Source of the DNA: an uncultured Sulfitobacter sp.
GTDB lineage: Bacteria > Pseudomonadota > Alphaproteobacteria > Rhodobacterales > Rhodobacteraceae
Assembly: GCF_947497275.1 (NCBI RefSeq)
Contig: NZ_CANMFS010000002.1
Location: 186,001-250,000 of the forward strand
Direction of reading: 5' to 3'
DNA: 64,000 bases
The stretch's first letter is position 1. Every line of letters starts with the position of its first letter. The notes under the pieces were generated by a model. The model had not been told where the DNA came from, did no database searches, and worked only from the letters and a program-made list of their open reading frames with translations. Shown one piece after another: positions 4,751 to 35,874 of the stretch. The translations under genes and the position numbers were made by a program.

Positions 4751-4899
4751 CGTGTCCATCGGGTCACAATTGGAACTGAGCAATCTGGTTTGAATTCGGC
4801 ATCTGTACATTTCCGATAATTTCACTCAGTTAATACGCCAAGCAAGCAAGCGGTTTCATGAGTCCCAGCCAGCCACCAATTTCTGGAAGGGACGAAATA

Positions 4900-6840: not shown

Positions 6841-6848
6841 GCCGCGCC

Positions 6849-18731: not shown

Positions 18732-18749
18732 ACCTACACCTGTGCTTTC

Positions 18750-19942: not shown

Positions 19943-22033
19943 CTAAACCTTCGTAGCGATCAAAGCGTCCAGCGCCACAGCACCGTCCGGCAATAGAAGA
20001 AACGGATTAACGTCCACGGATTCAATTCGGTCGGCGTTCTCGGCTGCAAAGATCGAAAGACGCGAAAGCGCACGGGCCAAGGCATCGATATCCGAGCCCG
20101 CAGCACCGCGTACGCCATCAAGTATGGCACGCCCCCGTATCTCTTCGATCATCCGACGCCCTTCAACTTCATCAAAAGGGGCCAGGCGGAACGTAACATC
20201 CTGCAGCACCTCAACGAATACGCCACCCATTCCGAACATAACCGCCGGCCCAAACAAGGGGTCGTTGATGACACCCAGGACAGTTTCAACACCTCCGCTG
20301 ACCATCGGGCCAACCAACACTGCAACCTCATCCACTTCGGGATGTGCCGCCCGAGCGCGTTCGATAAGCGTGTCAAAAGCATCCGCCGCTGCTTCTGCGG
20401 AAGCAATGTTCAGCAACACCCCTCCTATTTCGGTCTTGTGCAGGATGCTTGCGGCGACAACCTTCATGACCGCAGCATCCCCGATCGTGGACCAGGCTGC
20501 TGCAGCTTCCTCGCGTGTATGCACCAGATGATCGTCGGTCACTGGGATGCCCCAGCTCTGAAGCACTTTCTTGGCCTGATATTCATCGACCGGACCCATC
20601 GGAACGTCGAGCGCATCCTGTGGCCGCGCGCTATCTTCTGAGGGCAATACCTGCTCGAAAGCCTCGCCGAAATAGCTGAGCGCCGCTATCGCCCGCACAG
20701 CCAACGATGGATCCTCAAAGCATGGAATACCCAGATTTTCGTAGTGTGCCTGGTCTTCAGCTGTTGCCATGATGCTTAGTATCAGGTTCTGGGTCTTGTG
20801 CTTTTCACGTAGCCGTCGGTAAATCTCCGCTACCGCATCCCGAGTGAGCGGCGAAGATGCAACCGAGGCCATGTAAACCAGGTAACTGTCGCAACTGCCG
20901 GTCTCGATGACCAGGTCGGTGATTTCCTCGATCAAACGGGGATCGGCCAGTGCTTTGCCAGTGAAATCGACCGGGTTGCGCGTACCCGCAAACGCAATCA
21001 GGTCTGAGATCCGCTTCTGTACTGCGTCCGGCAACGGCGGCACTTCCAGCCCTGCCGCCTCGGCTGCATCGGCCATTAACACGCCAACGCCGCCCGAAAT
21101 AGTCTGCAGGCAGATCCTCCGGCTTTTTGGAAACGTGCCGAACTGGCAGGCGTAGGCCACATCCAGCATCTCTTCGGTGGTCAGCGCCCGGTAGACGCCA
21201 TATTGCGTGAACAATGCATTATACAGTGCATCGCTTCCGGCCAGCGACGCTGTGTGGGATGCCGCAGCGGCAGCGCCAACGCTCGATTGACCTACCTTGA
21301 TAAAGATAACCGGCTTACGTGCCGCATGGGCCGCGCGCAGTGCCCGCTTCATGGCCGACATGTCTTGCACGCCTTCGGCGTAGGAAATGATCACTTTGAC
21401 CTCGGGTTTCCCCGCGTAGTATTCGATGACCTCTGCGACATCGACATCGCATTCATTGCCGGTCGTTACCCAATAGCGCACGCCTAAACCGCGTTTCTGG
21501 GCCATCATGTATAGGTGCGAGCCGTAGGCGCCAGATTGACTGATAATGCCGAGGCTGCCCGACTTCATCAAACCCGTCGCTGGATAATTGGCAAAGGTGC
21601 CGTACCAGTCGTTGGCCGGCACGGCGACTCCGAGGCAATTGGGGCCAACTATGCGCATGCCGGAGTCGCGCGCGATTGCAGTCAGCTCTTCCTGAATTTC
21701 AGCCCCCTCTGCGCCGCTTTCCGCCAGACCGGAGGTAAAAACCACCACTGAACGCACGCCGATGTCGGCACATTCGCGGATCGTCTTGAGCAGGTGGGCC
21801 ACGGGAACCGCGACGATGGCGCAGTCAACGACCTCCGGCACGTCGGCGATGCTTGAAAAAGCGGGCAATCCCTGAACTTCGGAATACTTCGGGTTGATCG
21901 GGTAGATATTTCCTTTGAACCCGGAACCGATCAGGTTGTTGATGGGACGTCCACCAATACGCGCTGGCACATTCGACGCACCGATGATCGCCACTGACTT
22001 CGGATTAAGGAACGCTTCGAGCGACGCACTCAT
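19943..22033 (-). CDS. Acyl-CoA synthetase, NDP-forming, paralogue of 11788-13929
   Basis: This 696-residue enzyme should form an acyl-CoA from a carboxylic acid and ATP through phosphohistidine. It has the CoA-binding domain (about 8-105, SVAIIGASNVPARIGG), the ligase domain with the candidate phospho-histidine His260 (ASHTASLAG), and the ATP-grasp domain from about residue 485 (DEYQAKKVLQSWGIP). It aligns with the synthetase at 11788-13929 along its full length. Its start overlaps the stop of the AtuA-like gene by four bases. It gives the operon a route to activate its imported acid. Confidence 0.92.
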   Translation of the reverse strand: MSASLEAFLNPKSVAIIGASNVPARIGGRPINNLIGSGFKGNIYPINPKYSEVQGLPAFSSIADVPEVVDCAIVAVPVAHLLKTIRECADIGVRSVVVFTSGLAESGAEGAEIQEELTAIARDSGMRIVGPNCLGVAVPANDWYGTFANYPATGLMKSGSLGIISQSGAYGSHLYMMAQKRGLGVRYWVTTGNECDVDVAEVIEYYAGKPEVKVIISYAEGVQDMSAMKRALRAAHAARKPVIFIKVGQSSVGAAAAASHTASLAGSDALYNALFTQYGVYRALTTEEMLDVAYACQFGTFPKSRRICLQTISGGVGVLMADAAEAAGLEVPPLPDAVQKRISDLIAFAGTRNPVDFTGKALADPRLIEEITDLVIETGSCDSYLVYMASVASSPLTRDAVAEIYRRLREKHKTQNLILSIMATAEDQAHYENLGIPCFEDPSLAVRAIAALSYFGEAFEQVLPSEDSARPQDALDVPMGPVDEYQAKKVLQSWGIPVTDDHLVHTREEAAAAWSTIGDAAVMKVVAASILHKTEIGGVLLNIASAEAAADAFDTLIERARAAHPEVDEVAVLVGPMVSGGVETVLGVINDPLFGPAVMFGMGGVFVEVLQDVTFRLAPFDEVEGRRMIEEIRGRAILDGVRGAAGSDIDALARALSRLSIFAAENADRIESVDVNPFLLLPDGAVALDALIATKV

Positions 22034-23856
22034 TGTTCTCCTCCCCTGCGCGCGTGTTCCAAGAGGGATGCCGGGATCTTGACAGGCATCGCCAGAAGTT
22101 GCTGCGCGTAGCTCTTGCCCTGTGGATCAAGGAAAAGCGACGAGGTGCCGCCACCGTCAAGCGCATTTATCAAGACAAAGTTGAGAGCCAGCAAACCCGA
22201 CAATTCGTAGCGAACAGCCTTACCGCGCTGCACATGAGCGAACCAGCGATTGATACGTTCGACTGTCAGCTCCTGTTTCAGCCAGGGCAGCAGCGCCTCA
22301 TAGCGGGCGATCACACCGACATTGGCGTTGTCGCCCTTGTCACCGCTGCGCGCTACCGCGAGTTCAATAAGAGGTACTTCCACCAAATCGTTCGCTTCTC
22401 CTTCTGCTGGCAGCGGAATCTGCAAATCGCGCATTTGTGCCGGTTCGAAAAACTCAGACGGTGTTTGGGAGGTAAATGGGATCTTGCTACCGTTGACCTG
22501 TACTTCGATCTTCGTTTTGTCACGATCAACCAAGAACGCAAACTGAGCGATGACGGGCGCGACTTTCGGTCGGCCACCGGCGCCGCCAGAGGTCCGCCCG
22601 GTGGTCATGGACAGGGCAACACCTGTCACCTCTTTCGAAAATAGTTCGAGCGCTTCTCTCTGATCGTGACGCACGTCGACACGTACCATGACCTCCCGGC
22701 TGTCACGGGCTTCGGGGCGGGCGTTGGCGCCAAGAAGCGTCTCAGCACCAATGATATGGACGGCAGTTTTGCGGAAAGGTTCAAGTCCGCGTTCCTCGAT
22801 CAGTCGGCTCACGCGTTCAAGCAGAGCCTGGCTGTAGGCCTCGGCCTTTTCGACGACGTCGAAACCGGCGATGATCGTTCCCGCAGATGCCCGATAACCG
22901 TCCTTCCAGGTTGCTGACACCTTCAGCTTTTCAGGAGGCGGATAGCCTCTCACCCCATCGATGCTCACACGATTTTGCCCGCACTCGGTAATGCGCGCGT
23001 TCCGAAAATCACAGGTCACGTCCGGCATCAGATACGCACCGGGATCGCCAATCTCGTAGACGATCTGCTCGGATACGGTAAGGCGTGACACCAAGCCGCC
23101 GGTATCGTCGGGTTTTGTGATGACAAACCCGCCTGAGGGGTCGCACTCGGCAATAGGATATCCCATGTCTGACCACCCCGAAACGACATCTCGCCAATCA
23201 GTAAAGTTGCCGCCGGTTGACTGGGCGCCACACTCAAGGATGTGGCCGGCCAAGGTGCCTGCTGCTAATTGGTCATAGTCCTGCGGCTGCCAGCCGAATT
23301 CATGGATCAGCGGACCAAGCGTCGTTGCGCTGTCGACGCAGCGCCCGGTGACGACGATATCCGCGCCAGCGTCAAGCGCCGCCGCGATCGGGAAGGCCCC
23401 CAGATAGGCGTTGGCACTGACGAGTTCGTCAGGCATGGGGATGCCATTTGTCATATCCCGCACATCTTGTCCGCGAAGCTCGTGTGCACGCCCGAGCAAG
23501 TCATCGCCGGTCACTGTCGCGATGCGCAGGTTGAGCCCTGCATCCTCGGCCACCTTGGCCAGCGCGCTGGCGCAGGCCTCGACATTCACCCCACCTGCGT
23601 TGGCGATAACCTTGATTCCGCGTTTCTGAATATCCGGAAGAAGGGGTTTCATTACCAGATCTACAAAATCCCGGGCATACCCGGCATCGGGGGCCTTGGC
23701 GCGCGCGCGGACCAGGATCGACATCGTCACTTCGGCCAGGTAGTCGAAAACCAAATAGTCGATGTTTCCCTTTTCGATGAGCTGCCGGGCAGCCTGGGGG
23801 GTATCGCCCCAATAACCCGACGCACCGCCAAGGCGGATCTTTTTCGCCTCTTTCAT
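22030..23856 (-). CDS. AtuA-type acyclic terpene utilization family protein (DUF1446)
   Basis: This 608-residue protein belongs to the DUF1446/AtuA family. The large N-terminal domain (about 6-450) has the family patterns RLGGASGYWGDTPQAARQL, VIANAGGVNV and DIVVTGRCVDSATTLGPL. A C-terminal AtuA-like domain (about 490-590) has LAVARSGDKGDNANVGVIAR. In Pseudomonas, AtuA is needed for citronellol and geraniol breakdown, but its reaction is not established. The ATG at 23856 overlaps the enoyl-CoA hydratase stop (ATGA) and has a GGAG site upstream. Its presence beside the carboxylase makes the operon Atu-like. Confidence 0.88.
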   Translation of the reverse strand: MKEAKKIRLGGASGYWGDTPQAARQLIEKGNIDYLVFDYLAEVTMSILVRARAKAPDAGYARDFVDLVMKPLLPDIQKRGIKVIANAGGVNVEACASALAKVAEDAGLNLRIATVTGDDLLGRAHELRGQDVRDMTNGIPMPDELVSANAYLGAFPIAAALDAGADIVVTGRCVDSATTLGPLIHEFGWQPQDYDQLAAGTLAGHILECGAQSTGGNFTDWRDVVSGWSDMGYPIAECDPSGGFVITKPDDTGGLVSRLTVSEQIVYEIGDPGAYLMPDVTCDFRNARITECGQNRVSIDGVRGYPPPEKLKVSATWKDGYRASAGTIIAGFDVVEKAEAYSQALLERVSRLIEERGLEPFRKTAVHIIGAETLLGANARPEARDSREVMVRVDVRHDQREALELFSKEVTGVALSMTTGRTSGGAGGRPKVAPVIAQFAFLVDRDKTKIEVQVNGSKIPFTSQTPSEFFEPAQMRDLQIPLPAEGEANDLVEVPLIELAVARSGDKGDNANVGVIARYEALLPWLKQELTVERINRWFAHVQRGKAVRYELSGLLALNFVLINALDGGGTSSLFLDPQGKSYAQQLLAMPVKIPASLLEHARRGGEQ

Positions 23857-24662
23857 GACTTGCTCCAATCAGGGGCGCGTTTTTCTACAAACGCGGCTTG
23901 ACCTTCGCGGCCTTCACCAGTGCGATTCAGTTCAGCAAACTGTCGTGCGGCAAATCGGATCATTTCCTCCGGAGAACCGGAACTGGCCATCCGCATCATG
24001 ATTTCCTTGCTTGCTGCGCGCGCACCTGGCCCACATGCGAGAACCTCGGAGCAGACCTGCTCCAGTGTGTGCTGAGCATCGTCAGTATCACAGATGTATT
24101 GCCCGACACCCAATTCGTATGCCTGCTGTGCGTCAATTCGCTGACCAGTCAAGGCCAGCTGCAAGGCGCGGGACAACCCAATGCGGCGCACCACCCATGG
24201 CGCAATCTGGGCAGGCGCGATACCCAGCCGGGTTTCCGGCATACCCAGCCGCGCGCCCCGGACGAGAATGGTGATATCGGCCAAACAAGCATAACCCATA
24301 CCGCCGCCAAATGCCGCGCCCTCTACAAGCGCGACCGTGGTCGCGCGCAGTTTCGAAAATCGGAGGAACGTTTCGCCTGCACGCATGTTACGTGCCTCGA
24401 TCGGGTCCTCCTCGCCTTCGTGTCCAATCGTGGTTTCACGGCGTTCTTTAATGTCGCCGCCTGCACAAAAATTGCCGTCGGCACCAAAAAGGGTAACAAG
24501 ACTTGTCGAGGGGTTCTGCTCAAGCCAGTCAAGAGTTTCACTAAGTTCGCGCGACATCACGGCGTTGATCGCGTTCCGTGTTTCGGGACGATTGAACATG
24601 ATGTCCAAGCGGCCTGGTTTCGCTGTTAGTGTAAGGCATTCGGTTTGCGGCAGTGCCGTCAT
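23853..24662 (-). CDS. Enoyl-CoA hydratase/isomerase family protein
   Basis: This crotonase-fold enzyme of 269 residues should hydrate or isomerise an enoyl-CoA. The two oxyanion-hole segments are visible as NFCAGGDIKER (about 66-76) and GAAFGGGMGYACLADI. The ATG at 24662 has a GGGAGAG site six bases upstream; the longer frame back to 24788 is only a shadow of the neighbouring gene. It stands between the TIGR03084 and AtuA-like genes and would act on the product of the carboxylase, in the way AtuE or a methylglutaconyl-CoA hydratase does. Confidence 0.92.
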   Translation of the reverse strand: MTALPQTECLTLTAKPGRLDIMFNRPETRNAINAVMSRELSETLDWLEQNPSTSLVTLFGADGNFCAGGDIKERRETTIGHEGEEDPIEARNMRAGETFLRFSKLRATTVALVEGAAFGGGMGYACLADITILVRGARLGMPETRLGIAPAQIAPWVVRRIGLSRALQLALTGQRIDAQQAYELGVGQYICDTDDAQHTLEQVCSEVLACGPGARAASKEIMMRMASSGSPEEMIRFAARQFAELNRTGEGREGQAAFVEKRAPDWSKS

Positions 24663-24678
24663 GTCGTCTCTCCCATCC

Positions 24679-25536
24679 TCAATTTCGCACGCTACTCGAG
24701 ACCATTGTGTCGCGTGGTGGTCCTTGCCACGAAGGGGCATTGGGCCCGCGAGTTCCGGGCGGTGGTGGCGTGCGTGGCGGGCCAGCAAAACATTGGGCGA
24801 TATTCATCCAGCGCTTTGCGGTATCGCCATGCAGCTCAAGCGCCGTGTCAGCGACATTGCGTGTCTGGGTCACCACCTGACAAAATTCGACTGCCGCGCC
24901 TTCTATCCGATCCGCATCTGACGGTTCGTTCCACGTCCACACCGACCCCGACGGGCCGGAAAGCACCACATACGGGCTCGGTTCCGGCACCGGCTTCTTG
25001 CGGTTGCGAAAGGACCAGCCAAAGGTATTGATACCCAAGTAGGCAATCGACCTGAGGTGGGCGCCATTGTCTTGACGCGAAACACCTAGCAGATCATAGA
25101 CCGCCTGCGCATGAGCCCATGTCTCCATCATACGTGCCGAGACCGAAGACCTCGCGCTCATGTCCGGTCCGACCCATTTCACTCGCATCTTCGGGTCCGC
25201 CGCGGAGAAGGCTGCGCCAACGCGTTGATAACCTTCGCGCCACCGCTCCAAAAGGAGGTCCCCGCGACTGCCCTCAAGCTCATGATCCGTTGCTTCTATC
25301 AGCGTTTCGCCGCCACGGCGGCGTGCATTCAGACTTTCATAATAGGCGTCAAAAGCCTCTTCGTCCGTCAGCGATAGATAGGCCGCGTTGTTGAAGAAGT
25401 GGAGATGTTGGACAATGTTATCCACATTCCACCCCTTGAATTGGGTTTGCCGCTCGAAGACCTCTCCACCGGCTGATTTGATCAACTGGTAGAGAGCATC
25501 GCTGGTGGTCGTAAATCCGGTGGTTTCGGAGCTCAC
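24679..25536 (-). CDS. TIGR03084 family metal-binding protein (DinB/maleylpyruvate isomerase fold)
   Basis: This 285-residue protein matches the TIGR03084 family. The N-terminal four-helix bundle of the mycothiol-dependent isomerase type shows WNVDNIVQHLHFFNNAAY (about 36-53) and METWAHAQAVYDLLG (about 136-150), whose histidines are the probable metal ligands. The C-terminal part is a smaller alpha/beta domain, ending in a proline-rich tail. The function of the family is unknown. The start overlaps the stop of the nitronate monooxygenase-like gene by four bases, so it belongs to the catabolic operon. Confidence 0.85.
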   Translation of the reverse strand: MSSETTGFTTTSDALYQLIKSAGGEVFERQTQFKGWNVDNIVQHLHFFNNAAYLSLTDEEAFDAYYESLNARRRGGETLIEATDHELEGSRGDLLLERWREGYQRVGAAFSAADPKMRVKWVGPDMSARSSVSARMMETWAHAQAVYDLLGVSRQDNGAHLRSIAYLGINTFGWSFRNRKKPVPEPSPYVVLSGPSGSVWTWNEPSDADRIEGAAVEFCQVVTQTRNVADTALELHGDTAKRWMNIAQCFAGPPRTPPPPGTRGPNAPSWQGPPRDTMVSSSVRN

Positions 25537-26684
25537 GCATCGTCTCCCTCAAGCGCATTATGCAAACGCTCGTAAGCAGCGAGGAAGTCATCCCGAAAGG
25601 CCTGAACCGTTTGCCTCGCGGACTGTACCTCGTTCATCATGCCGACCCCTTGACCCACGAAGTAGGTGTTGAGTTCTTTCGCCCCCTCATGACCGCCAGT
25701 CGCGAGCTTTTCGACTTTGCGCAACGGCGCGGTAACAAGAACGTTCTGAAGCGGAAGCGGCAGTTTTTCCGGGGCATCAGCGCTTTCCCAGGCATCGGTC
25801 CATGCGGACCGCAGTTGGCGCGAATACTTGCCAGTTCGCGCACGGGAGCGCACCGTGTCCCGCGTACCGGCCGCCAACAGCTTTTCCTTGATCGCGGGCG
25901 AGTTTTCCGCCTCTGTTGTCGTCAGCCAAACAGACCCACACCAAGCGCCGGAAGCCCCCATCGACATGGCCGCCGCCATCTGCCGACCCTGAACAATACC
26001 TCCTGCGGCGAGGACGGGCACATCTGAGATCTTTTCGACTGCCTCGACGACATCGGGAACCAGAACCATCGTTCCGATTTCACCACAATGGCCACCTGCT
26101 TCGGTCCCGGCTGCGATTATGAGATCGACGCCAGCGTTGACCTGAGCCACTGCGTGTTCTTTTGTGCCGACCAACGCCGCAACCGGAACACCATGTTCCT
26201 TGGCCTTGTCGAGCATACTCTGTGGTGGAACACCAAGCGCGTTTGCAATCATCGCAATCGGGTGGGAAAAAGCGACATCCATCGCCCGTTCCGCCCCGGC
26301 GACGCGCGCGTTCTCACTCAGATACATCGTCTCCCTGCGGGCGTCGTCCCCAACATCGGATGGGTCGACATTGAACTTGCGCATCAACTCGTCGGTGAAG
26401 GCCTTGTGTTCTTCGGGAATCCTGCTGAGAATTTCATCGGCGGCTGGGTCCTCGTCACGGCCGTCCATCTTGTTGGGAACGATCAGATCAACACCATAGG
26501 GTTTCCCGTCGATGTGGTCGTCGATCCATTTCAATTCGGTCTCAAGCTCTTCTGGTGAGAAACGGACAACCCCCAAGACTCCCATCCCTCCGGCCTTTGA
26601 CACCTCGACGACGACGTCGCGACAGTGGCTGAAGGCGAACAGAGGAAAATCAATTCCGAAACGCTTGCACAGATCGTTGTTCAT
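25533..26684 (-). CDS. Nitronate monooxygenase-like flavoprotein
   Basis: This FMN-binding TIM-barrel protein of 383 residues belongs to the nitronate monooxygenase/2-nitropropane dioxygenase group. The glycine-rich phosphate-binding segments are visible as VDLIIAAGTEAGGHCGEIGTM, VPVLAAGGIVQGRQMAAAM and MGASGAWCGSVWL. Enzymes of this kind in acyl-CoA operons are not always true nitronate oxidases; they may act as enoyl reductases or remove a toxic by-product. It overlaps its neighbours by four bases on both sides, so it is firmly part of the operon. Confidence 0.88.
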   Translation of the reverse strand: MNNDLCKRFGIDFPLFAFSHCRDVVVEVSKAGGMGVLGVVRFSPEELETELKWIDDHIDGKPYGVDLIVPNKMDGRDEDPAADEILSRIPEEHKAFTDELMRKFNVDPSDVGDDARRETMYLSENARVAGAERAMDVAFSHPIAMIANALGVPPQSMLDKAKEHGVPVAALVGTKEHAVAQVNAGVDLIIAAGTEAGGHCGEIGTMVLVPDVVEAVEKISDVPVLAAGGIVQGRQMAAAMSMGASGAWCGSVWLTTTEAENSPAIKEKLLAAGTRDTVRSRARTGKYSRQLRSAWTDAWESADAPEKLPLPLQNVLVTAPLRKVEKLATGGHEGAKELNTYFVGQGVGMMNEVQSARQTVQAFRDDFLAAYERLHNALEGDDA

Positions 26685-28669
26685 TCTTCTACTCCTGAGT
26701 TAAGTTCCAAATCGAGTTCGATCATCAAAGAATTGGCCGCCACTTGGGCAGCCACGCTGCAATGGATTGCGGTAACGCGGCCTGCGGCGGGCGCAATGAT
26801 GTCATGTTGCATCTTCATTGCTTCCATCACCGCCAGACGCTGTCCGTGGTCGACTTGTTGGTTTGGTTCCACGAGAATTTCGATAACGGTACCGTGCATC
26901 GGTGCTTCGATCATTCCGTCGCCACCTGCCGAACTGCCTTCCGCAGAGTCCGCATAGCCGTCGTGGAAATCAAATTCTCCGTCTTCAAAGATGAGGTTGA
27001 TACTGCTTGGGTGAGCGAGAAAGGTCGCCCGCTCTAATACGTTGCCAATCCGGAAACGCGCACTGTGGCTGTCCTCGGACACATCCGCCAAGGCAATCAC
27101 ATCCTCATCGACGACAACCCGGTACCCATTTTCCTTTGGCGTGACGGAAACCTTTTTCCCGGCCAACAAGTAATTGGTAACAAGAGGCGGTCCCGAGGAC
27201 CAATTCAGCAATTCCTCAGGTATAGTCAGCGCTTGTTGCCGAGCAGCCTTACGTTGTGCGCCGTATAGCAGAACAGCACCAACCGCGATTTGCTCTGATG
27301 TAGGTATCAGTTCGGCAAACCCTTCGGCGAACTCTTCCGAGATGAAACTGGTCGTAGCCTTGCCTGCGATAAAGGCCGGGCGCTCAAGCGAACGAACAAG
27401 AAAATCACGGTTGACCTTTGGGCCAATCAGAACGGTCTGGTTTAGCGCCTTGATAAGATTCAGGCGCGCCGCTTCCCTATCTGGTCCTATGCCGATAATT
27501 TTTGCGAGCATTGGATCGTAGTGGGGAGACACCTCCAGCCCGGTTTTCAACCCGTCATCGCAGCGTATTCCATCACCTTCCGGCGCTACCCAAATTTCGA
27601 TCTTGCCAGTCGCTGGCATAAAATCATTCGCCGCATCCTCAGCATAGAGCCGGGCCTCGATGGCATGGCCACTGAGGGCGATTTGCTCTTGCGAAATACC
27701 CAAGGGGAGCCCTTGCGCGACGCGCAGTTGAAGTTCAACCAAATCAAGCCCAGTCACTTCTTCCGTCACAGGGTGTTCGACCTGCAAGCGCGTGTTCATT
27801 TCCAGGAAATAGAACTCGCCATCGGCACCTAAAAGAAATTCGACCGTGCCAGCGCCTTGGTAATCCACGGTACGAGCCGCTGCCACTGCGGCTTGCCCCA
27901 TGCGCTCACGCAGGTCCGGCGTCATGATCGGCGACGGCGATTCCTCCAGGATCTTTTGGTGACGGCGCTGCACCGAGCAATCCCGTTCGCCCATATGGAT
28001 GATATCGCCGGCCTGATCTCCGAATACTTGGATTTCGATATGCCGAGGATTGATGATGGCCCGCTCCAGGATCAGTTCACCCGACCCAAAGGAATTGCGC
28101 GCTTCGGACCTTGCGGCAAGCAGGCCAGCTTCCAGATGATCGACTGAGTGAATCAAACGCATACCCTTGCCACCGCCCCCGGCAGCAGCCTTGATCATAA
28201 GCGGAAAGCCTACAGCCGTGGCCTCGCGGATCAGGGTCTCGTCGGATTGATCCTCGCCCTGATAGCCGGGAACACACGGCACATCGGCATCAATCATGAG
28301 CCGTTTTGCTGCTGCCTTATTGCCCATCAGATCAATTGACCTTGGCTTGGGCCCGACAAAGACGATATCCTCTTCGGCGCAGCGCTTCGCGAACTCTGCA
28401 TTCTCAGACAGAAAGCCATATCCGGGATGGATCGCATCTGCGCCTGTTTCATGCGCCGCGGCTATGATGCGCTCAATATCCAGATAGGATTGCGCAGCAG
28501 GTGCGGGCCCGATCTCGACCGAGACATCGGCCATCTGAGCATGGGGCGCCTGTGCGTCAACATCAGAGTGAACGGCAACAGTCCGGTATCCGAGCCTGCT
28601 TGCGGTGCGCATTATCCGACAAGCGATTTCGCCGCGGTTTGCTATCAGTAGTGTCTTAAACGTACGCAT
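26681..28669 (-). CDS. Acyl-CoA carboxylase, biotin carboxylase/BCCP subunit
   Basis: This is the biotin-bearing alpha subunit of an acyl-CoA carboxylase. Its 662 residues comprise an N-terminal biotin carboxylase (about 1-450) with KTLLIANRGEIACRI, the ATP-grasp glycine loop KAAAGGGGKGMR and the EMNTRLQVEHPVTE active-site stretch. A linker domain follows, then a C-terminal biotinyl domain with EAMKMQH, where Lys619 carries biotin. The family layout fits methylcrotonyl-, geranyl- or propionyl-CoA carboxylase alpha chains. It lies six bases after the carboxyltransferase gene. The AtuA homologue in the operon points to the geranyl/methylcrotonyl type. Confidence 0.94.
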   Translation of the reverse strand: MRTFKTLLIANRGEIACRIMRTASRLGYRTVAVHSDVDAQAPHAQMADVSVEIGPAPAAQSYLDIERIIAAAHETGADAIHPGYGFLSENAEFAKRCAEEDIVFVGPKPRSIDLMGNKAAAKRLMIDADVPCVPGYQGEDQSDETLIREATAVGFPLMIKAAAGGGGKGMRLIHSVDHLEAGLLAARSEARNSFGSGELILERAIINPRHIEIQVFGDQAGDIIHMGERDCSVQRRHQKILEESPSPIMTPDLRERMGQAAVAAARTVDYQGAGTVEFLLGADGEFYFLEMNTRLQVEHPVTEEVTGLDLVELQLRVAQGLPLGISQEQIALSGHAIEARLYAEDAANDFMPATGKIEIWVAPEGDGIRCDDGLKTGLEVSPHYDPMLAKIIGIGPDREAARLNLIKALNQTVLIGPKVNRDFLVRSLERPAFIAGKATTSFISEEFAEGFAELIPTSEQIAVGAVLLYGAQRKAARQQALTIPEELLNWSSGPPLVTNYLLAGKKVSVTPKENGYRVVVDEDVIALADVSEDSHSARFRIGNVLERATFLAHPSSINLIFEDGEFDFHDGYADSAEGSSAGGDGMIEAPMHGTVIEILVEPNQQVDHGQRLAVMEAMKMQHDIIAPAAGRVTAIHCSVAAQVAANSLMIELDLELNSGVEE

Positions 28670-28675
28670 ATTTCC

Positions 28676-30298
28676 TCACATCCGCCCGATACCGAAAGTG
28701 TTGGTGCGGACTTCACGTCCGCGGGCCTCGCGGCAGGTGTCCAATGCGAAACCGATGATTTTACGCGTGTCGCGCGGGTCAACTATGCCCATGTCGAGCA
28801 TTTGCCCCGAGGTGTAAAAGGCGCTTTCCTGTTGCTCGAAATGCGCCAAAAGAGCTGCTTTACGCTCACTCAGCTTCGCCTCGTCCACCTCAAAACCCTT
28901 ACGCGCCGCGCTGCCGCGCGCCACCATATCCATCGTGGTCGCCGCCTGCTCGCCGCCCATCACGCCGGAACGCGAATTAGGCCAGGCAAAAAGGAAATCA
29001 GGCTCGTAGGCAAAACCCGACATGCCGTAATTCCCCGCCCCGAAACTGGCTCCAATATAAAAGGTGATCTTTGGCACACGAACATTCGATACTGCCTGGA
29101 TCATTTTTGACCCGTGCTTGATCATGCCAGCTTGTTCGTAATCCTTACCGACCATGTAACCGGTGATGTTATTTAGGAAAACCAGCGGCATGTCCGCTTG
29201 ATCGCACAATTGCATGAACTGAGCCGCCTTGGCCGCCCCGTTTGGGTCGATGGGACCGTTATTGCCTATCATACCAACGGCATGCCCCATCACGGATGTC
29301 TGGATGCAGACCAAGCTGGGTCCGAAATCGGGCTTGAATTGATCCAGATCCGAACCATCTGCCAAGCGCGCCATTACTTCGCGGGTGTCGTAGGCCTTGC
29401 GGTAATCGACCGGCACCACGCCCGCCAACTCTTCGGGTGAATAGTGCGGAGGTGCGTAGTTGCCCTGCGCGGGCGCGGCGCAATTTCGGTTCCAATCAAG
29501 CCGCGCAACCAACTGGCGGAGTTTAGCCATCGCATGAGCATCGTCTTCGACCAAATGCTCCACGACACCTGAAATCTCAGCATGCATCTGAGCGCCCGCC
29601 AACTCTTCTTCGTCAGCGACTTCGCCTGTAGCCGCGCGGACCAACGCCGCACCGCCCAATGAGGCCCGGCCACGCCCTTTGACCGCAATAACATAGTCCG
29701 AAAGACCCGGATAGTATGCCCCGCCCGCCGTCGACGGACCGTGCAGAACCGCAAAGGATGGAACGCCGGCCGCGCTTAGTTGCGCAAGACGTCGAAACGC
29801 GCCGCCTCCCCATGCCCAACCGGCAACTCGGTATTCAAGCAGGTTGGCACCCGCGCTTTCCACCAAATGCAGAAACGGCAACTTCTTGTCGAGCGCGATG
29901 TCCAGACAGTTACGCAGTTTTTCCCCTGTCTTTGGGGTGCCGGCACCGGCGTTAATTCCGCTGTCACTTGCATAGATCATGCAACGCGTACCGCTGACAA
30001 ACCCAATCCCGGCAATTGTATTGGCACCGGGCAGCGATTTCTCGGGGTCAGAGGTATCGATAAGATAGTTGGCCATTCCGAACAATTCGAGAAATGGCAA
30101 TCCGGGGTCCAGCAGCCGCGCAATACGTTCACGGGGAGTCAGTTGCCCGCGCTCTTCAAACACTGCGCGTCGACGTTCTGACGCCTGAGACGACCGATCC
30201 TTCAAAGTATGTACGCGATCAACAAGCGCAAGCATATCGCTGCGATCATTGGCAAAAGCCTCTGAGCTCACGTCGATGCGCGAAGTAAAAACTGGCAT
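28676..30298 (-). CDS. Acyl-CoA carboxylase, carboxyltransferase subunit
   Basis: This beta subunit moves the carboxyl group from biotin to the acyl-CoA. The 540 residues have the two crotonase-like halves of the family: the N half with GIGFVSGTRCMIYASDSGINAG and GPSTAGGAYYPGLSDYVI, and the C half with NNITGYMVGKDYEQAGMIKHG and ASFGAGNYGMSGFAYEPDF. The last is close to methylcrotonyl/geranyl-CoA carboxylase beta chains rather than to propionyl-CoA carboxylase. The ATG at 30298 follows a GAGGGGGGG ribosome site. It is the first gene of the minus-strand operon. The exact acyl chain is not decided by sequence alone. Confidence 0.93.
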   Translation of the reverse strand: MPVFTSRIDVSSEAFANDRSDMLALVDRVHTLKDRSSQASERRRAVFEERGQLTPRERIARLLDPGLPFLELFGMANYLIDTSDPEKSLPGANTIAGIGFVSGTRCMIYASDSGINAGAGTPKTGEKLRNCLDIALDKKLPFLHLVESAGANLLEYRVAGWAWGGGAFRRLAQLSAAGVPSFAVLHGPSTAGGAYYPGLSDYVIAVKGRGRASLGGAALVRAATGEVADEEELAGAQMHAEISGVVEHLVEDDAHAMAKLRQLVARLDWNRNCAAPAQGNYAPPHYSPEELAGVVPVDYRKAYDTREVMARLADGSDLDQFKPDFGPSLVCIQTSVMGHAVGMIGNNGPIDPNGAAKAAQFMQLCDQADMPLVFLNNITGYMVGKDYEQAGMIKHGSKMIQAVSNVRVPKITFYIGASFGAGNYGMSGFAYEPDFLFAWPNSRSGVMGGEQAATTMDMVARGSAARKGFEVDEAKLSERKAALLAHFEQQESAFYTSGQMLDMGIVDPRDTRKIIGFALDTCREARGREVRTNTFGIGRM

Positions 30299-30763
30299 GT
30301 CCCCCCCCTCAAGCAATCAGGCCCCGTCACAAGCGCGAACCGGGTTACCTCGCGGATCCTTTTCAGGACCGCTCCTCCCACGCCAGCGGTGATCCACGAC
30401 TGTGATTTATCGTTAGCGTCTCTGATACAGTCATGCATCAGTACCTACCTGTCAACAATAATTTCACACATCTGGATAATATGCCATTTTTGATCCAGAT
30501 ATATGTACCTGTGCTCGGAGGAGGTAGTCGGATCTTGCGGACGAGGTATTTCAGCGTGCAACGGAACTGCCGCGCACAGATGCAATAAAACTCGTGTGCG
30601 CACTGCATATCCGGCGGTGCCCGCGCCGGCTCCGCCTGCAGATAACAGGGACCTACAATTTGATAGTTTTGGGACAGGACGCGCCGGATTTGAGCGACAC
30701 CACCGAGCGCCCTCTCAATCGTAAGAAGCCGCGCCAACTTCAAGAAGCAGCGCCGCGCTGCCT
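30299..30763. promoter_or_regulatory. Intergenic control region upstream of the carboxylase operon
   Basis: These 465 bases lie between the end of the IclR gene and the first gene of the operon and contain no convincing gene. They hold the promoter elements and inverted repeat listed separately (30450-30509). The part between 30510 and 30763 shows nothing I recognise. Confidence 0.6.
30450..30509 (-). promoter_or_regulatory. Candidate promoter with operator, carboxylase operon
   Basis: Read on the minus strand, a perfect TTGACA (30455-30450) is a candidate -35 box for the carboxylase operon; the -10 box downstream is weak. Just upstream lies an eight-base inverted repeat, ATCTGGAT (30470-30477) and ATCCAGAT (30493-30500), with a 15-base spacer. 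The right arm continues as ATCCAGATATATGTACC (30493-30509), which matches 15 of 17 bases at 31516-31532 near the IclR start. The position fits binding by the IclR regulator. Confidence 0.5.
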
Positions 30764-31498
30764 TTACTTTGGTATGATTTTGTCGATCGCGACCCGCATG
30801 GCCTCGGCAATCCGCAAGGCATTTCCTTCAAACCTGAACATCGGTCCCGCAACTGTAAAAGCGAGATGGCGCCCAAAAACAGGCAAAGCCATCGAGATCC
30901 CGCCCAGATCAGGACTGAAATTGGATGCGCTGACGAACCAGCCTCGTTCGACGCCCTCTGTAATCCTGTTCTCGACTTCAGCGGCATTCAACGGAGTGCC
31001 GGAACCGTACTTCACGAACATGGCACGCTTCAGCAGCGATTCACGTTGCTGCGGTGACATCAAGGACATCAGCGCATGGCCCGTTGCGGTTGCATGGATT
31101 GGTACACGCTTTCCTGGTTCCGCGACATAGCGGATCGGTTGCGGTGAGTTCGCAACGCTCAGCATTATCGCGTTCTGACCGCTGGGCGCGGCTACCCATG
31201 TCGTTTCGCCCATCTGCTCGGAAACTGTGCGAACAAGTTCGAAAACTTCGTCCGGTAGAGGTTCCGCAGTTGATATCTCTTGCGACAAACTCAGCCAGCG
31301 AGGTGTTGGATAAAAACCAGCTCTGGTGCGGGGTTCATATAGGAAGCCCCGCTCAACCAAGGTATCGATCACGTTGAAAGTACTCGACCGGGGCCAACCG
31401 AAATGTTCGGAAAGCTCCTTCAAGCCCGCTGGCCTTCCCACTTGAGCATAGAACTCAAGCACATCCAGCGCGTTCGAAATCTGACGTACCTGAGCCAC
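30764..31498 (-). CDS. IclR family transcriptional regulator
   Basis: This regulator has 244 residues. The N-terminal winged helix (about 8-65: ALDVLEFYAQVGRPAGLKELSEHFGWPRSS is split here by its two helices) precedes the ligand-binding domain (about 80-244) with the IclR patterns GKRVPIHATATGHALMSL and SPDLGGISMALPVFG. I chose the GTG at 31498, with GAGGGGG about seven bases upstream; a frame back to 31657 would run through AT-rich promoter sequence. It sits between the two arms of the acyl-CoA cluster and is the likely local regulator, sensing a pathway acid or CoA ester. Confidence 0.9.
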   Translation of the reverse strand: MAQVRQISNALDVLEFYAQVGRPAGLKELSEHFGWPRSSTFNVIDTLVERGFLYEPRTRAGFYPTPRWLSLSQEISTAEPLPDEVFELVRTVSEQMGETTWVAAPSGQNAIMLSVANSPQPIRYVAEPGKRVPIHATATGHALMSLMSPQQRESLLKRAMFVKYGSGTPLNAAEVENRITEGVERGWFVSASNFSPDLGGISMALPVFGRHLAFTVAGPMFRFEGNALRIAEAMRVAIDKIIPK

Positions 31499-31647
31499 AC
31501 ACGCCCCCTCTTTAAATCCATATATATGTATCACTATCAGATTCTCAGCGCAAATGTTGAATGCTGTTGACTGCCTTTCTTGCCCCATGTAATCCATATT
31601 TGAAGATTTATTATGCAGAAATGTGAACAAATGAAGGGGTGAGGTAA
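31499..31647. promoter_or_regulatory. Divergent promoter region with candidate IclR box
   Basis: The region separates the IclR gene and the CoA-transferase gene. ATCCATATATATGTAT (31516-31531) is a 16-base palindrome with one mismatched pair, and matches the copy before the carboxylase operon. A partial copy, ATCCATAT, lies at 31592-31599. On the plus strand TTGACT (31567-31572) and TGTAAT (31588-31593) form a possible promoter with a short 15-base spacer. The box close to the regulator's own start suggests autoregulation. Confidence 0.5.
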
Positions 31648-32862
31648 ATGGGGCCACTGGAAGGATTGCGCGTGCTGGACATGACGTCCGTAGTCATGGG
31701 CCCTTATACGACGCAGTTTCTGGGCGATTTCGGCGCAGATGTGATTAAGGTCGAGGCTCCGGGAGGCGATGTTGTCCGGCAGGTCGGTCCCAGCCGGAAC
31801 AGCGGAATGGGCCCTCTTTTTCTAAATTCCAACCGCTCAAAGCGCTCAATTACACTGGATCTGAAAACGCCCGAGGGATTGAAGGCTTTGTTGCGCCTTG
31901 CCGAGCGAGCCGATGTACTGGTCTACAATATCCGCCCCGCTGCCATGGCGCGCCTTGGCTTGTCCTACGAAGAGGTCTCAGCGCACAACCCGCGCATCAT
32001 CTATGCGGGCATGTTTGGCTATTCACAGGATGGGCCCTACGCCGCCTATCCCGCCTACGACGATCTGATCCAGGGCGCTGCTGCGCTGCCTTATCTGTTT
32101 CAACGCGCAGGGTCGGCGGAGCCGCACTACGTTCCAACGGCGATCAGCGACAGGGTTGTTGGGCTGTTTGCCCTGTCAGCAATATTGGCGGGGATTCACG
32201 AACGTAGTTCTTCCGGCCAGGGCCAACGGATTGACATACCAATGTTCGAATGTATGGCAAGCTTTATCCTGTCGGATCATCTAGGCGGCCAAAGCTATGA
32301 TCCACCGCTGGATCGCGGCGGCTATCACAGACAATTGTCACCTGAGCGGCGCCCCTACCAAACCAGTGACGGCTACATCTGCGCGTTGCTCTACACCGAC
32401 GCGCACTGGCGACGGTTTTTTATGGCAATCGAGCGCAGCGATCTGATCGAGAATGATCATCGCTTTGCCACGTTCAATGCACGCATGGAGCACCTCGACG
32501 AGGTCTACAGGACGTTGTCGGACCTTCTGTCTCAGCGCACCACCGCCGAATGGCTGGAGGTTTTCGGGCAAGCCGATATTCCGGCCATGCCGATGAACGA
32601 CATCGAGGGAATATTGAACGACCCTCATATGCAAGCGACCGATTTCTTTCAATTTACCGACCATCCGAGCGAAGGCCGCCTGCGCGAGATGAAGGTGCCA
32701 ACGCAGTTTTACCGCACACCGGCCACCCCCTCGCAGCCGGTTCCCAGACAGGGGCAAGACGGTCACCAGATTCTGAGCGAGGCTGGGTTCAGCACTGAGG
32801 AATTGCAGGAATTGGCCGATACTGGCGGTTGGTTGGAGCCAGATGAAACGATTGAAGCATAG
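31648..32862 (+). CDS. Class III CoA-transferase (CaiB/BaiF family)
   Basis: This enzyme moves CoA between organic acids. The 404 residues start with the family's LEGLRVLDMTSVVMGPYTTQ and contain GADVIKVEAPGGD. Asp168 (TAISDRVVG) is at the position of the catalytic aspartate that forms the acyl-anhydride in this family. The C-terminal part includes RIDIPMFECMASF. It is the first gene of the plus-strand arm and offers a second way, besides the ADP-forming synthetase, to put CoA on the substrate. The donor and acceptor cannot be told from sequence. Confidence 0.93.
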   Translation: MGPLEGLRVLDMTSVVMGPYTTQFLGDFGADVIKVEAPGGDVVRQVGPSRNSGMGPLFLNSNRSKRSITLDLKTPEGLKALLRLAERADVLVYNIRPAAMARLGLSYEEVSAHNPRIIYAGMFGYSQDGPYAAYPAYDDLIQGAAALPYLFQRAGSAEPHYVPTAISDRVVGLFALSAILAGIHERSSSGQGQRIDIPMFECMASFILSDHLGGQSYDPPLDRGGYHRQLSPERRPYQTSDGYICALLYTDAHWRRFFMAIERSDLIENDHRFATFNARMEHLDEVYRTLSDLLSQRTTAEWLEVFGQADIPAMPMNDIEGILNDPHMQATDFFQFTDHPSEGRLREMKVPTQFYRTPATPSQPVPRQGQDGHQILSEAGFSTEELQELADTGGWLEPDETIEA

Positions 32863-32875
32863 GAAGGAACACTAG

Positions 32876-34042
32876 ATGGATTTCTCCATGACGGAAGAAC
32901 AACACGCCATCCGTGATGCGGTCGCCGCGATTTGCACACGCTTTGACGAAAACTACTGGCTGGAAAAGGACAGAACCGGCGGTTTCCCCGATGATTTTTA
33001 TAATAGTCTGGCCGATGCGGGTTGGCTGGGCATCTGTATCCCGCAAGCCTACGGTGGTTCAGGGCTCGGGATTACCGAGGCGGCCATCATGATGCGAACA
33101 ATCGCAGCGTCAGGTGGAGGAATGTCGGCAGCCTCTGCTGTGCATATCAACATCTTTGGGCTCAACCCCGTCGCCGTCTTCGGCACCGAAGAACAGAAAC
33201 AGCGCATGTTGCGACCAATGGCAGAAGGAAAAGAAAAAGCCTGTTTCGGCGTGACCGAGCCCGACGCCGGGCTGAATACCACGCAGTTGAAGGTGCGCGC
33301 TGTTCGCGATGGCGATCGCTATATCGTCAATGGTCAGAAGATCTGGATATCTACCGCCCAGGTGGCTGACCGGATCCTGCTGTTGGCCAGAACAACGCCG
33401 CTGGACAAGATCAAGAGACCGGCAGAGGGCCTCAGCCTGTTCTACACCAAGCTCGACCGCACCCGTGTTAAGATCAAGGAAATCGACAAGATGGGGCGCA
33501 AGGCTGTCGATTCCAACGAATTGTTCTTCGAGGACTACGAAATTCCGGAAGAAGACAGAATTGGAGAAGAAGGCCGAGGGTTCGAGTATATTCTGCACGG
33601 GATGAACCCCGAACGGGTTCTGATTGCCTCGGAGGCCATCGGTTTAGGCAACGCCGCGCTAAGGCATGCTTCAAAATACGCCGCCGAACGTGTGGTTTTT
33701 AACCGCCCCATCGGACAAAATCAGGCCATTCAGCATCCGTTGGCCAAATGCTGGTCAGAGCTTGAAGCCGCTTGGCTGATGGTCATGTCCGCTGCATGGA
33801 GCTACGACAATGGTAAGTCGGTAGGCGTGGCTGCGAATGCAGCTAAATACCTTGCCGGTGAAGCCGGGTACAATGCATGCCAGACGGCGGTCATGACCCA
33901 TGGCGGATTTGGCTATGCCAAGGAATTCCATGTGGAGCGGTTCCTGCGGGAGTCGCTGATCCCCCGGATCGCCCCCGTCAGCCGCGAACTCGCCCTGAGC
34001 TTCATCGCAGAAAAAGAACTCGGCCAGCCCAAATCTTACTGA
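32876..34042 (+). CDS. Acyl-CoA dehydrogenase
   Basis: This is a FAD enzyme of 388 residues with the complete family layout: N-terminal helices, the beta domain with CFGVTEPDAGLNTTQLKVRA (about 123-142) and QKIWISTAQ, and the C-terminal bundle with THGGFGYAKEFHVERFLRE. The ALIPRIAPVSREL-like C-terminus is typical of medium or branched-chain members. The start is 13 bases after the CoA-transferase gene. In an Atu/Liu-type pathway it would make the alpha-beta double bond that the carboxylase needs, as citronellyl- or isovaleryl-CoA dehydrogenase does. Confidence 0.93.
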   Translation: MDFSMTEEQHAIRDAVAAICTRFDENYWLEKDRTGGFPDDFYNSLADAGWLGICIPQAYGGSGLGITEAAIMMRTIAASGGGMSAASAVHINIFGLNPVAVFGTEEQKQRMLRPMAEGKEKACFGVTEPDAGLNTTQLKVRAVRDGDRYIVNGQKIWISTAQVADRILLLARTTPLDKIKRPAEGLSLFYTKLDRTRVKIKEIDKMGRKAVDSNELFFEDYEIPEEDRIGEEGRGFEYILHGMNPERVLIASEAIGLGNAALRHASKYAAERVVFNRPIGQNQAIQHPLAKCWSELEAAWLMVMSAAWSYDNGKSVGVAANAAKYLAGEAGYNACQTAVMTHGGFGYAKEFHVERFLRESLIPRIAPVSRELALSFIAEKELGQPKSY

Positions 34043-34160
34043 GCTGCTGTCGGAGACAAGAGGTCATCGGCGGATGGCCCACTCCGAGGGACAACCTACA
34101 TTGGCAGATCGTCCCGGCCCCTGACGTCATCGGACCGGTCGCAACGAAAAGGATAGAAAC

Positions 34161-35336
34161 ATGAGTCTTCCAGTTATTGTATCTTTGGCGCGAACCCCAA
34201 TTGGAAAAGCGGCGCGTGGCGCGTTGAATCAGACCCATGGCGCGACTATGGGTGGTCATGTTGCGTCCATCGCTGTAGAGCGCGCCGGTATTGACCCCGC
34301 CTTGATCGAAGACAGCGTCTGGGGCGTTGGCCACCCAGAGCATGTGACCGGCGGGAACATCGGTCGTCAGATCGTCATCCGGGCAGGCCTTCCCGACGAG
34401 ATCGCGGGGATGACGGTAAATCGGTTTTGTTCGTCCGGCCTGCAGGCGCTGGTCATCGGCTCAGAGATGGTGCGGCAACAAGGGGCTGCGGCAGTCCTGA
34501 CCGGCGGGCTTGAAAGCATCAGTCTGAACCAGCCGCCCCCGCGCCACCCCCGGGAAGAATGGATTGAAACCCATCGCCCCGAACTTTACATGCCGATGAT
34601 CGAAACCGCAGACATTGTGGCTGAACGCTATGGCATCGATCGTGAGGCGCAGGATCGTTACGCGTTCGAATCTCAAAAACGTATGGCCCGCGCGCAGGAA
34701 GCCAACCTTTTTGCAGACGAAATCGTCCCCATTACAGTTGAGCGATCGGTAACCAACCGTGAAACTGCGGAACAGCGGATCGAAACCGTTCGGTTTGACG
34801 CTGACGAGTGCAACCGGCCGGGAACAACCTATGAAGCACTGGCCAGTCTCGATCCGGTGCGCGGTCCGGGCAACTATATAACGGCAGGAAACGCATCGCA
34901 GTTGTCGGATGGGGCGGCGGCACTGGTCGTCGTGTCAGAGGAAATTGCGACCCGAGAGGGCTTGGTCCCGTTAGGCACCGTGCGCGGGTTCGCCGTTGCC
35001 GGATGCGCCCCTGACGAAATGGGTATTGGCCCTGTCTTTGCGATCCCCCGGCTGTTGGAACGACAAAACCTGAAGGTAGATGATATCGACCTTTGGGAAT
35101 TGAACGAGGCCTTTGCCAGCCAGTGCCTCTATTGCCGTGACAAACTGGGAATCGACCCGGAAAAATACAACGTGAACGGCGGCGCTATCGCCATCGGCCA
35201 TCCCTTTGGAATGTCGGGTGCGCGCATGACGCAGCATATCTTGCTGGAAGGCCGCCGGCGAAGTGCCAAGTGGGGGGTCGTATCCATGTGTGTCGGCGGG
35301 GGCCAAGGCGCCGCAGCGTTGATTGAGATTTTTTGA
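34161..35336 (+). CDS. Thiolase family protein (acetyl-CoA acyltransferase)
   Basis: This 391-residue thiolase cleaves a 3-oxoacyl-CoA with free CoA. The acylated cysteine is Cys90 ([11 protein letters not shown]), the catalytic His is His347 ([12 protein letters not shown]), and the second cysteine is Cys377 ([11 protein letters not shown]); the NEAF motif (ELNEAFASQ) is also present. All active-site residues are intact. It follows the dehydrogenase by 118 bases, a gap that could hold its own promoter. It would complete the beta-oxidation part of the pathway. Confidence 0.94.
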
Positions 35337-35439
35337 TGTTTCCCGATTTTAGGATACATCGCTCTGCCCGCCAACCGAACACTGCAGGATACCTTTTCGG
35401 CGAAGCCGCATTGCTGTCATTACGCGACGAGGATCGGTC

Positions 35440-35874
35440 ATGAGCGAAGATGCAATGGCAGAAGTAAACGCCAAAACGACCATCGGCTATGAAATCGAAC
35501 GGAGCAACCCGGATGGAGATGCTATTATAAGCCTGCAAGTCGATGAGCGGCATCTCAACGGTCACGGGATTGCGCATGGCGGCATAGTCGCAACGCTTCT
35601 TGATACGGCGGCAGGTCGCACAGCGGCGACGTTTTTCGATCAGGATCGAAAGATCTCAATTGTTACAGTCTCGATGAACATCAGTTACCTTGCCCCCTGC
35701 ACTCCCGGTCGGGTGATATGTACGGGTCACGTCCTTGGGGGTGGAAAAACATCCGTAGTATGTGAGGCCGAGTTGCGTGATGAAACCAAAAAACTGCTCG
35801 CTAAGGCTGTCGGCGTATTCCGCAGCATCGGCGCGAAGAAATGGAACAAACCAGCCACCAAGGATGATGGCTAA
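35440..35874 (+). CDS. PaaI family hotdog thioesterase
   Basis: This is a 144-residue hotdog-fold thioesterase that hydrolyses acyl-CoA esters. The HGGIVATLLDTAAG stretch (about 46-59) is the PaaI active-site helix with the conserved His-Gly-Gly and Asp. A short charged C-terminal tail follows the last strand. An alternative ATG lies five codons later. It is the last intact gene of the plus-strand arm before the decayed island and probably rescues CoA from stalled intermediates. Confidence 0.9.
   Translation: MSEDAMAEVNAKTTIGYEIERSNPDGDAIISLQVDERHLNGHGIAHGGIVATLLDTAAGRTAATFFDQDRKISIVTVSMNISYLAPCTPGRVICTGHVLGGGKTSVVCEAELRDETKKLLAKAVGVFRSIGAKKWNKPATKDDG

Follow-up and report, generated by a model that had tools for sequence, protein, structure and literature searches.

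The closest described counterparts of the locus reported here are the Atu pathway of acyclic terpene breakdown, encoded in Pseudomonas by atuABCDEFGH, and the Liu pathway of leucine and isovalerate breakdown, whose logic of biotin-dependent gamma-carboxylation followed by hydration it would share. Within the Atu set, AtuB and AtuG are dehydrogenases of the SDR class, AtuH is an AMP-forming ligase and AtuR is a regulator of the TetR class. Two further enzymes enter the comparison: mycothiol-dependent maleylpyruvate isomerase, and citramalate lyase, which splits citramalate into acetate and pyruvate, the same kind of cut as the Atu pathway needs. Here we analyze a gene cluster of an uncultured Sulfitobacter sp. 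(Rhodobacteraceae) on contig C2 of its 4.29-Mb genome, G000, in the window G000:C2:186001-250000 (NZ_CANMFS010000002.1; 64,000 nucleotides, to which all positions below refer unless a contig is named). Judging from its sequence, the minus-strand core resembles a variant form of the Atu pathway of gamma-carboxylation rather than the leucine pathway, and we consider it reasonably probable that the cluster as a whole follows Atu logic in the breakdown of a beta-methyl-branched, perhaps isoprenoid, carboxylic acid.

The minus-strand core and its carboxylase

We scanned 18 cluster genes, spanning 11788 to 35874, against domain and family models. The genes named in the original prediction, which had described a two-armed AtuA/carboxylase cluster for a branched acid, are all present, with domain scores far over chance. 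The core reads as follows:

28676 to 30298, minus strand: CTβ, carboxyltransferase beta subunit, predicted gamma-carboxylating (geranyl-CoA carboxylase, GCC, lineage) from PF01039 (356 bits), Gly at the GCC Gly162 position and the tree; likeliest start ATG at 30298
26681 to 28669, minus strand: BCα, biotin carboxylase and biotin carrier (Biotin_carb_N, CPSase_L_D2, Biotin_carb_C, Biotin_lipoyl; AMKM biotinylation motif at residue 617)
25533 to 26684, minus strand: nitronate monooxygenase (NMO)/FabK-like FMN oxidoreductase (PF03060, 155 bits; FabK model 144 bits, under cut-off)
24679 to 25536, minus strand: TIGR03084 metalloprotein, predicted thiol-dependent cis-trans isomerase-like (TIGR03084, 287.2 bits against a cut-off of 247.95)
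23853 to 24662, minus strand: enoyl-CoA hydratase in an AtuE/LiuC-like pathway position (ECH_1, 151 bits; ATG start)
22030 to 23856, minus strand: AtuA, predicted acetate-releasing carbon-carbon lyase (PF07287, 497 bits; PF23544, AtuA_ferredoxin, 95 bits)
19943 to 22033, minus strand: ACS1, ADP-forming acyl-CoA synthetase (ATP-grasp_5, Succ_CoA_lig, CoA_binding_2)

Four of the six core junctions (BCα/NMO-like, NMO-like/TIGR03084, hydratase/AtuA and AtuA/ACS1) overlap by four bases, and the remaining two are gaps of 6 and 16 bases; these genes are presumably co-transcribed. The prediction of four-base overlaps at most junctions thus holds for the core and fails once the TRAP transporter genes are counted, where it applies to only four of nine. 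Those genes had been placed within 19943-35874 but are sited at 16747-19853, and the junctions into and within them are gaps of 89, 18 and 182 bases.

The cluster resembles the Atu system in combining an AtuA that bears AtuA_ferredoxin with a GCC-type CTβ/BCα pair, a hydratase, a dehydrogenase and a ligase, and the order AtuA-CTβ-hydratase-BCα in relatives parallels atuA-C-E-F. It differs in its additions (TIGR03084, the NMO-like protein and TRAP uptake) and in a carboxylase that belongs to a sister clade of GCC. As predicted, neither the NMO-like protein nor TRAP uptake is listed as an Atu component in the available portions of PMC4097962 and PMC4847356.

According to the sequence rules in the accessible part of PMC4673880, the beta subunit of methylcrotonyl-CoA carboxylase (MCC) combines a Phe in the pocket with a three-residue insertion, and that of GCC has Gly and no insertion. 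The window CTβ agrees with GCC on both counts, with Gly at the Gly162 position and without the MCC insertion, while the genome's own Liu-type copy has Phe at the pocket position. The top PDB match of CTβ is GCC beta (5ikl, 541 bits), against 434 bits for MCC (3u9r). We placed it in a midpoint-rooted carboxyltransferase tree of 44 rows, from which the near-duplicates L119 and L121 and seven own-genome rows (duplicates or misread frames) were left out. CTβ falls in a 27-row clade (support 100/100) that is sister to Pseudomonas aeruginosa GCC and a Sphingobium copy; the 29-row group that includes 5ikl has support 100/99, and MCC and the Liu copy fall outside it. Forcing the window CTβ, MCC and the Liu copy into one clade was rejected (log-likelihood 431 lower; approximately unbiased test, p-AU 0.0001). 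The genome holds 14 carboxyltransferase matches, of which 12 are strong, and its Liu-type carboxylase at C1:343246 lies close to an acyl-CoA dehydrogenase, its pairing with P. aeruginosa MCC having support 82/60. Phylogenetic grouping with the Liu pathway had been named as what would refute the original prediction, and CTβ does not group with MCC; pocket residue, insertion, tree, clade test and the separate Liu-type copy all mark the carboxylase and AtuA core as Atu-type rather than Liu.

AtuA and TIGR03084 as candidate pathway enzymes

For the acetate-lyase step in the breakdown of acyclic terpenes (EC 4.1.3.26), the consulted part of the review PMC4097962 names LiuE and that of PMC4847356 names AtuA. 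The AlphaFold2 model of AtuA (pLDDT 85.8) has a sole PDB fold match under E 0.001, namely chain A of citramalate lyase (9evf_A; E 7e-23, TMt 0.74). In addition, the AtuA profile finds 9erq at E 1e-5, with the G-R-x-x-D and L-E-C motifs aligned; this entry was deposited as 'AtuA family protein / citramalate lyase subunit A'. Compared with citramalate lyase CmlAB (9erq/9evf), AtuA has the chain A fold and, it appears, a chain-B-like domain, but it is one chain and its link to chain B is weak. The modelled citramalate-lyase-like fold supports a role for AtuA as the acetate lyase of the pathway.

Among 389 other genomes of the order, a search for AtuA at the strict cut-off of E 1e-200 gave no further copy. 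Across the family, whole PF07287 matches divide into two classes, long AtuA at about 430-550 bits and proteins that score about 63-96 bits and often measure ~450-500 aa; this shorter class is near CmlA in length (456 aa). Within G000, a second AtuA start is found at two contig ends (L034, the right end of C30, and L037, the left end of C7) that share their last 77 bases, which suggests that two further near-identical AtuA copies were lost to assembly there. Several of the genome's carboxyltransferase matches also lie on C7 and C30, with this second AtuA, and copies almost identical to the carboxyltransferases of these contigs are found on a Sulfitobacter pontiacus plasmid. In G000:C7:158000-183000 (L039, L040), more genes for carboxyltransferases and biotin carboxylases are densely grouped together with TRAP genes.

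TIGR03084, which carries the NCBIfam label of a hypothetical equivalog, had been noted as no part of the known Atu set. It is indeed outside the Atu parts named in what was available of PMC4097962 and PMC4847356, yet it is a recurrent partner of carboxylase/AtuA sets in both Pseudomonadota and Actinomycetota. We analyzed the best 80 of 590 confirmed matches (at least 590 exist), a sample in which near relatives are over-represented; in 69 of the 80 loci the open reading frame caller located the TIGR03084 frame, and contig ends truncate many of the loci. A CTβ of at least 53% identity lies in the flank of 22 of the 80, accompanied by BCα in all 22, by AtuA in 17 and by the NMO-like gene in 11. 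Six more loci have distant carboxyltransferases only (28-42% identity; five group with MCC in the tree), and AtuA occurs without a CTβ of at least 53% identity in three loci outside the 22. The commonest order is AtuA-CTβ-(hydratase)-BCα-(NMO-like)-TIGR03084. In a Rhodospirillaceae metagenome-assembled genome (L044:7660-9961), two NMO-like genes are adjacent within the module; two contigs titled Pelagibacteraceae (L078, L086) have AtuA, a hydratase and TIGR03084, with no carboxylase in the flank.

Similar gene company is found on plasmids, of which we examined 5 of 49 records with TIGR03084 and 5 of 167 with AtuA. Three Rhodococcus plasmids have the run CTβ-BCα-hydratase-TIGR03084-AtuA-acyl-CoA dehydrogenase-ligase, and Mycolicibacterium chubuense NBB4 has hydratase-TIGR03084-AtuA with a carboxylase nearby on the opposite strand. 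The Rhodococcus CTβ has a pocket Ala and, in the midpoint-rooted tree, lies on the MCC side at the end of a long branch. AtuA-carboxylase sets occur on five other plasmids (three from Roseobacteraceae, one from Roseibium and one from Sphingobium) whose fetched stretches have no annotated TIGR03084, and thus two kinds of set exist. On a Streptomyces parvus plasmid (L185), TIGR03084 stands apart from these partners; genes for a P450, a GMC oxidoreductase and an acyl carrier protein are close by, and no AtuA is annotated in the stretch.

Co-occurrence was assessed in 149 family genomes from 148 genera, 25 of which encode TIGR03084 (23 over its cut-off). The CTβ search, at its own cut-off of E 1e-130 or better, returned 20 genomes, and TIGR03084 is present in 17 of these versus 8 of the remaining 129. 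With CTβ at 51% identity or more, a cut picked after the list was seen, the counts are 13/15 versus 12/134 (Fisher 3e-10), or 12/14 versus 12/134 (Fisher 1.4e-9) once the own genome is removed. Long AtuA (~430 bits or more, plus one partial contig-edge match in G087) likewise occurs in 13 of 25 genomes with TIGR03084 versus 9 of 124 without it (Fisher 7e-7). The association has exceptions: G092 and G131 have CTβ and no TIGR03084 match, and CTβ/TIGR03084 pairs are unlinked in some genomes, for example G027, G101 and G134. NMO-like homologues of at least 58% identity are confined to four of the 149 genomes, the own genome included, and all four have CTβ.

The AlphaFold2 model of TIGR03084 (pLDDT 93.9) matches only 2nsf and 2nsg in the PDB under E 0.001 (E about 1e-6), both of mycothiol-dependent maleylpyruvate isomerase. 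Likeness extends over the whole length of the fold and to an invariant His and Glu-x3-His set: His44 and Glu138-x3-His142 (window numbering), candidate metal residues, are invariant in 40 aligned TIGR03084 sequences. These we compare with the presumed metal-binding residues of the isomerase, of which the 2nsg title names H52 only. The two proteins differ in sequence, with only 16-17% identity, and the bacteria that carry TIGR03084 here are presumed not to produce mycothiol. As for the carboxylase, the seen part of PMC4673880 regards trans-geranyl-CoA as unlikely to fit it, and that of PMC4097962 lists cis-geranyl-CoA as a substrate. Since the carboxylase is thought to take cis substrates only, a cis-trans isomerase would admit trans acids, and we infer from the modelled fold that TIGR03084 may be a cis-trans isomerase-like enzyme acting upstream of the carboxylase; action on the carboxylated intermediate instead is equally open. 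In the open PMC library we found no paper on TIGR03084, none linking maleylpyruvate isomerase to geranyl-CoA, none treating AtuA together with citramalate lyase (9erq and 9evf being known here by their PDB titles) and none describing AtuA with a carboxylase and TRAP.

Regulation, extent of the cluster and alternative readings

Beyond the core, the cluster comprises a regulator gene, a plus-strand arm, the TRAP genes and a probable third arm; two candidate operator sites are listed with them:

30493 to 30508, plus strand: candidate operator site 1, upstream of CTβ, pattern ATCCANATATATGTA allowing one mismatch
30764 to 31657, minus strand: IclR-type regulator between the two arms (IclR_C, HTH_IclR); start uncertain, probably nearer 31500
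31516 to 31531, plus strand: candidate operator site 2, in the divergent promoter region of IclR and CaiB, the same pattern allowing one mismatch
31648 to 32862, plus strand: CoA-transferase family III, CaiB-like (PF02515, CoA_transf_3, 353 bits)
32876 to 34042, plus strand: acyl-CoA dehydrogenase of the plus-strand arm (PF00441, PF02770, PF02771)
34161 to 35336, plus strand: thiolase, acyl-CoA acyltransferase (PF00108, PF02803; TIGR01930 over cut-off)
35440 to 35874, plus strand: hotdog thioesterase (PF03061, 4HBT, 63 bits; TIGR00369 over cut-off)
18750 to 19853, minus strand: TRAP substrate-binding protein DctP (PF03480, 61 bits)
18252 to 18731, minus strand: TRAP small permease DctQ (PF04290, 41 bits)
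16747 to 18069, minus strand: TRAP large permease DctM (PF06808, 281 bits)
15490 to 16548, plus strand: small subunit of a paired acyl-CoA dehydrogenase (top PDB match 6wy8_A, Tcur3481)
14273 to 15478, plus strand: large subunit of the paired, probably heteromeric, acyl-CoA dehydrogenase (top PDB matches 6wy8_B, Tcur3483; 6wy9_A; 4x28_A)
11788 to 13929, minus strand: ACS2, second ADP-forming acyl-CoA synthetase, probable third arm (PF13549, PF13607)

A 9-base word is common to the region upstream of CTβ and the IclR/CaiB intergenic region, and we extended it by eye to a 15-base pattern, ATCCANATATATGTA. Allowing up to one mismatch, this pattern has exactly two copies in the genome, and the reversed control pattern has none. 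Because the pattern was built from its two sites, their presence is no evidence, and it is the uniqueness that counts. The site is unique to the flanks of the IclR gene, so the two arms are probably co-regulated, with the IclR regulator probably controlling both by binding one candidate site in each. This shared site is the best evidence for joint action of the two arms. The broader prediction that all genes of the cluster act together fares less well, given that the TRAP genes do not overlap and that TRAP, ligase and dehydrogenase genes occur without AtuA elsewhere.

ACS2 is the closest match of ACS1 in 295 family genomes, with three candidates scored per genome (52% identity; the next is 48%), and the cluster probably extends left to 11788, taking in ACS2 and the dehydrogenase pair as a third arm. 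The alternative with most to recommend it is that two separate systems adjoin here, a TRAP/ADP-ligase/paired-dehydrogenase set for one organic acid and an Atu-like module for another substrate. In 2 of 10 other family stretches (L201 and L202), TRAP genes, a ligase and homologues of both dehydrogenases lie within 20 kb without AtuA or CTβ, and three further stretches of the ten have the ligase with one or both dehydrogenases and no TRAP; at this locus, such a recurring uptake/ligase/dehydrogenase set may have joined an Atu-like module. The gaps between the TRAP genes fit such a division, as does the lack of a close copy of the shared site near the third arm. However, the dehydrogenases of L201 and L202 are only ~30% identical and, in L201, not adjacent, both arms at this locus are flanked by the shared site, and ACS1 overlaps AtuA by four bases while finding its closest listed match in ACS2. 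We regard two independent systems as unlikely. A ligand for the TRAP transporter could not be taken from solved structures, the closest, 4p56 at 61 bits, being too distant for inference.

The paired dehydrogenases also bear on a second alternative, a side-chain module for C24-branched sterols, which are carboxylated at the branch and then cut by retro-aldol cleavage. Their best matches, 6wy8 and 4x28, are entries that we take to be steroid enzymes, and the Mycolicibacterium plasmid has TIGR03084-AtuA beside a P450, MaoC, a thiolase and a Zn-ribbon protein. Against this, no KshA_C match turned up in the genome, and hence there is no sign of the usual aerobic steroid ring route; nor was a paper supporting a sterol link found in the open PMC library. 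We judge the sterol reading improbable. Finally, a second leucine/isovalerate pathway, in which the carboxylase would be an MCC and the cluster would end in HMG-CoA, shares the same reaction logic and has MCC beta as a close relative of CTβ (434 bits), but it is largely refuted by the pocket, insertion, tree position and clade test of CTβ and by the separate Liu copy, and with no HMG-CoA-lyase (LiuE-like) family match among the 18 genes scanned it is very improbable.

The locus is not delimited by neat island boundaries in congener comparisons. Seven of nine congener stretches are syntenic with the window to the right of about 36279, over a span that takes in a two-component locus broken here; the match of L216 is limited to two pieces (36278-36566 and from 39135), and that of L211 begins only at 39117. 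To the left of those points, none of the nine stretches is syntenic, and a comparison of the 116 kb to the left with two congeners (about 33 kb from each) gave no match of 150 bases or more. The segment 36279-38550 is a decayed copy of a locus apparently intact in congener L212, where a TRAP set (DctP, DctQ-like, DctM) diverges from genes for a response regulator and a histidine kinase with a Cache domain (MctS/MctR-like); ~2.7 kb of TRAP genes are gone here, and kinase and regulator persist only as fragments. At the other end of the window, 2729-10401 holds two TonB-dependent receptors and a FecCD/periplasmic-binding/ABC iron-type uptake set.

A proposed pathway

Taken as an Atu-logic variant, the cluster would work as follows. 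The TRAP transporter would import the acid, the ADP-forming ligase (or the CaiB transferase) would form its CoA ester, and an acyl-CoA dehydrogenase would introduce the alpha,beta-double bond. TIGR03084 may then set the cis (Z) geometry required by a GCC-type carboxylase, and CTβ/BCα would carboxylate the gamma (methyl) carbon. After the hydratase adds water, AtuA would take off the two-carbon branch as acetate, and the resulting 3-oxoacyl-CoA would be cleaved by the thiolase. The likeliest substrate is a beta-methyl-branched, perhaps isoprenoid, acid, and the suggestion in the original prediction of a branched acid not yet described is plausible.

Several observations weigh against this reading. 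Among the 18 cluster genes there is no AtuB/AtuG dehydrogenase, no AMP-forming AtuH and no AtuR, and an ADP-forming ligase and IclR are found instead. The hydratase is under the AtuE/LiuC-like model cut-offs, with 142 bits to the gamma-carboxygeranoyl-CoA hydratase (AtuE) model against a cut-off of 426. The pocket Gly is found in 23 of the 27 clade members, the other four having Ala (two), Ser and Phe; since Gly is not universal, the clade is GCC-like yet distinct, and its substrate may differ. AtuA is only 17% identical to citramalate lyase chain A, and chain B of 9evf comes at rank 13 (E 0.015, probability 1.00), outranked by unrelated proteins whose TMt is far below its 0.74; a sequence comparison of the AtuA C-terminal domain with the PDB did not find chain B. 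Moreover, ADP and pyruvate are both named in the title of 9evf, which points to a possible ATP-dependent mechanism. For TIGR03084, TM-scores to 2nsf/2nsg are moderate (0.46-0.55; 2nsf 0.48/0.55), 55 of the 80 nearest loci have neither AtuA nor a CTβ of at least 53% identity in the fetched flank, and 9 of 33 close co-directional neighbours, when scanned, belonged to varied families with no fixed partner outside the module. A single clade of the Rhodococcus CTβ and the 27 rows was also rejected (p-AU 0.0003), so that the phyla share gene company and not one carboxylase lineage.

A wider proposal is tentative, and we hold it to be doubtful: TIGR03084 may mark an undescribed gamma-carboxylating catabolism in Actinomycetota and Pseudomonadota, built on different carboxylase lineages, in which it would serve as an E-to-Z isomerase of beta-methyl enoyl-CoAs and AtuA, uniting both citramalate lyase subunits in one chain, would be the true acetate lyase, classical Atu included. 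Whatever the reach of that proposal, AtuA becomes a concrete candidate for the acetate-lyase step through its fold match to citramalate lyase, and the recurrence of TIGR03084 beside a carboxylase thought to be cis-only gives this protein a role that is open to test, in a gene set found in marine alphaproteobacteria.

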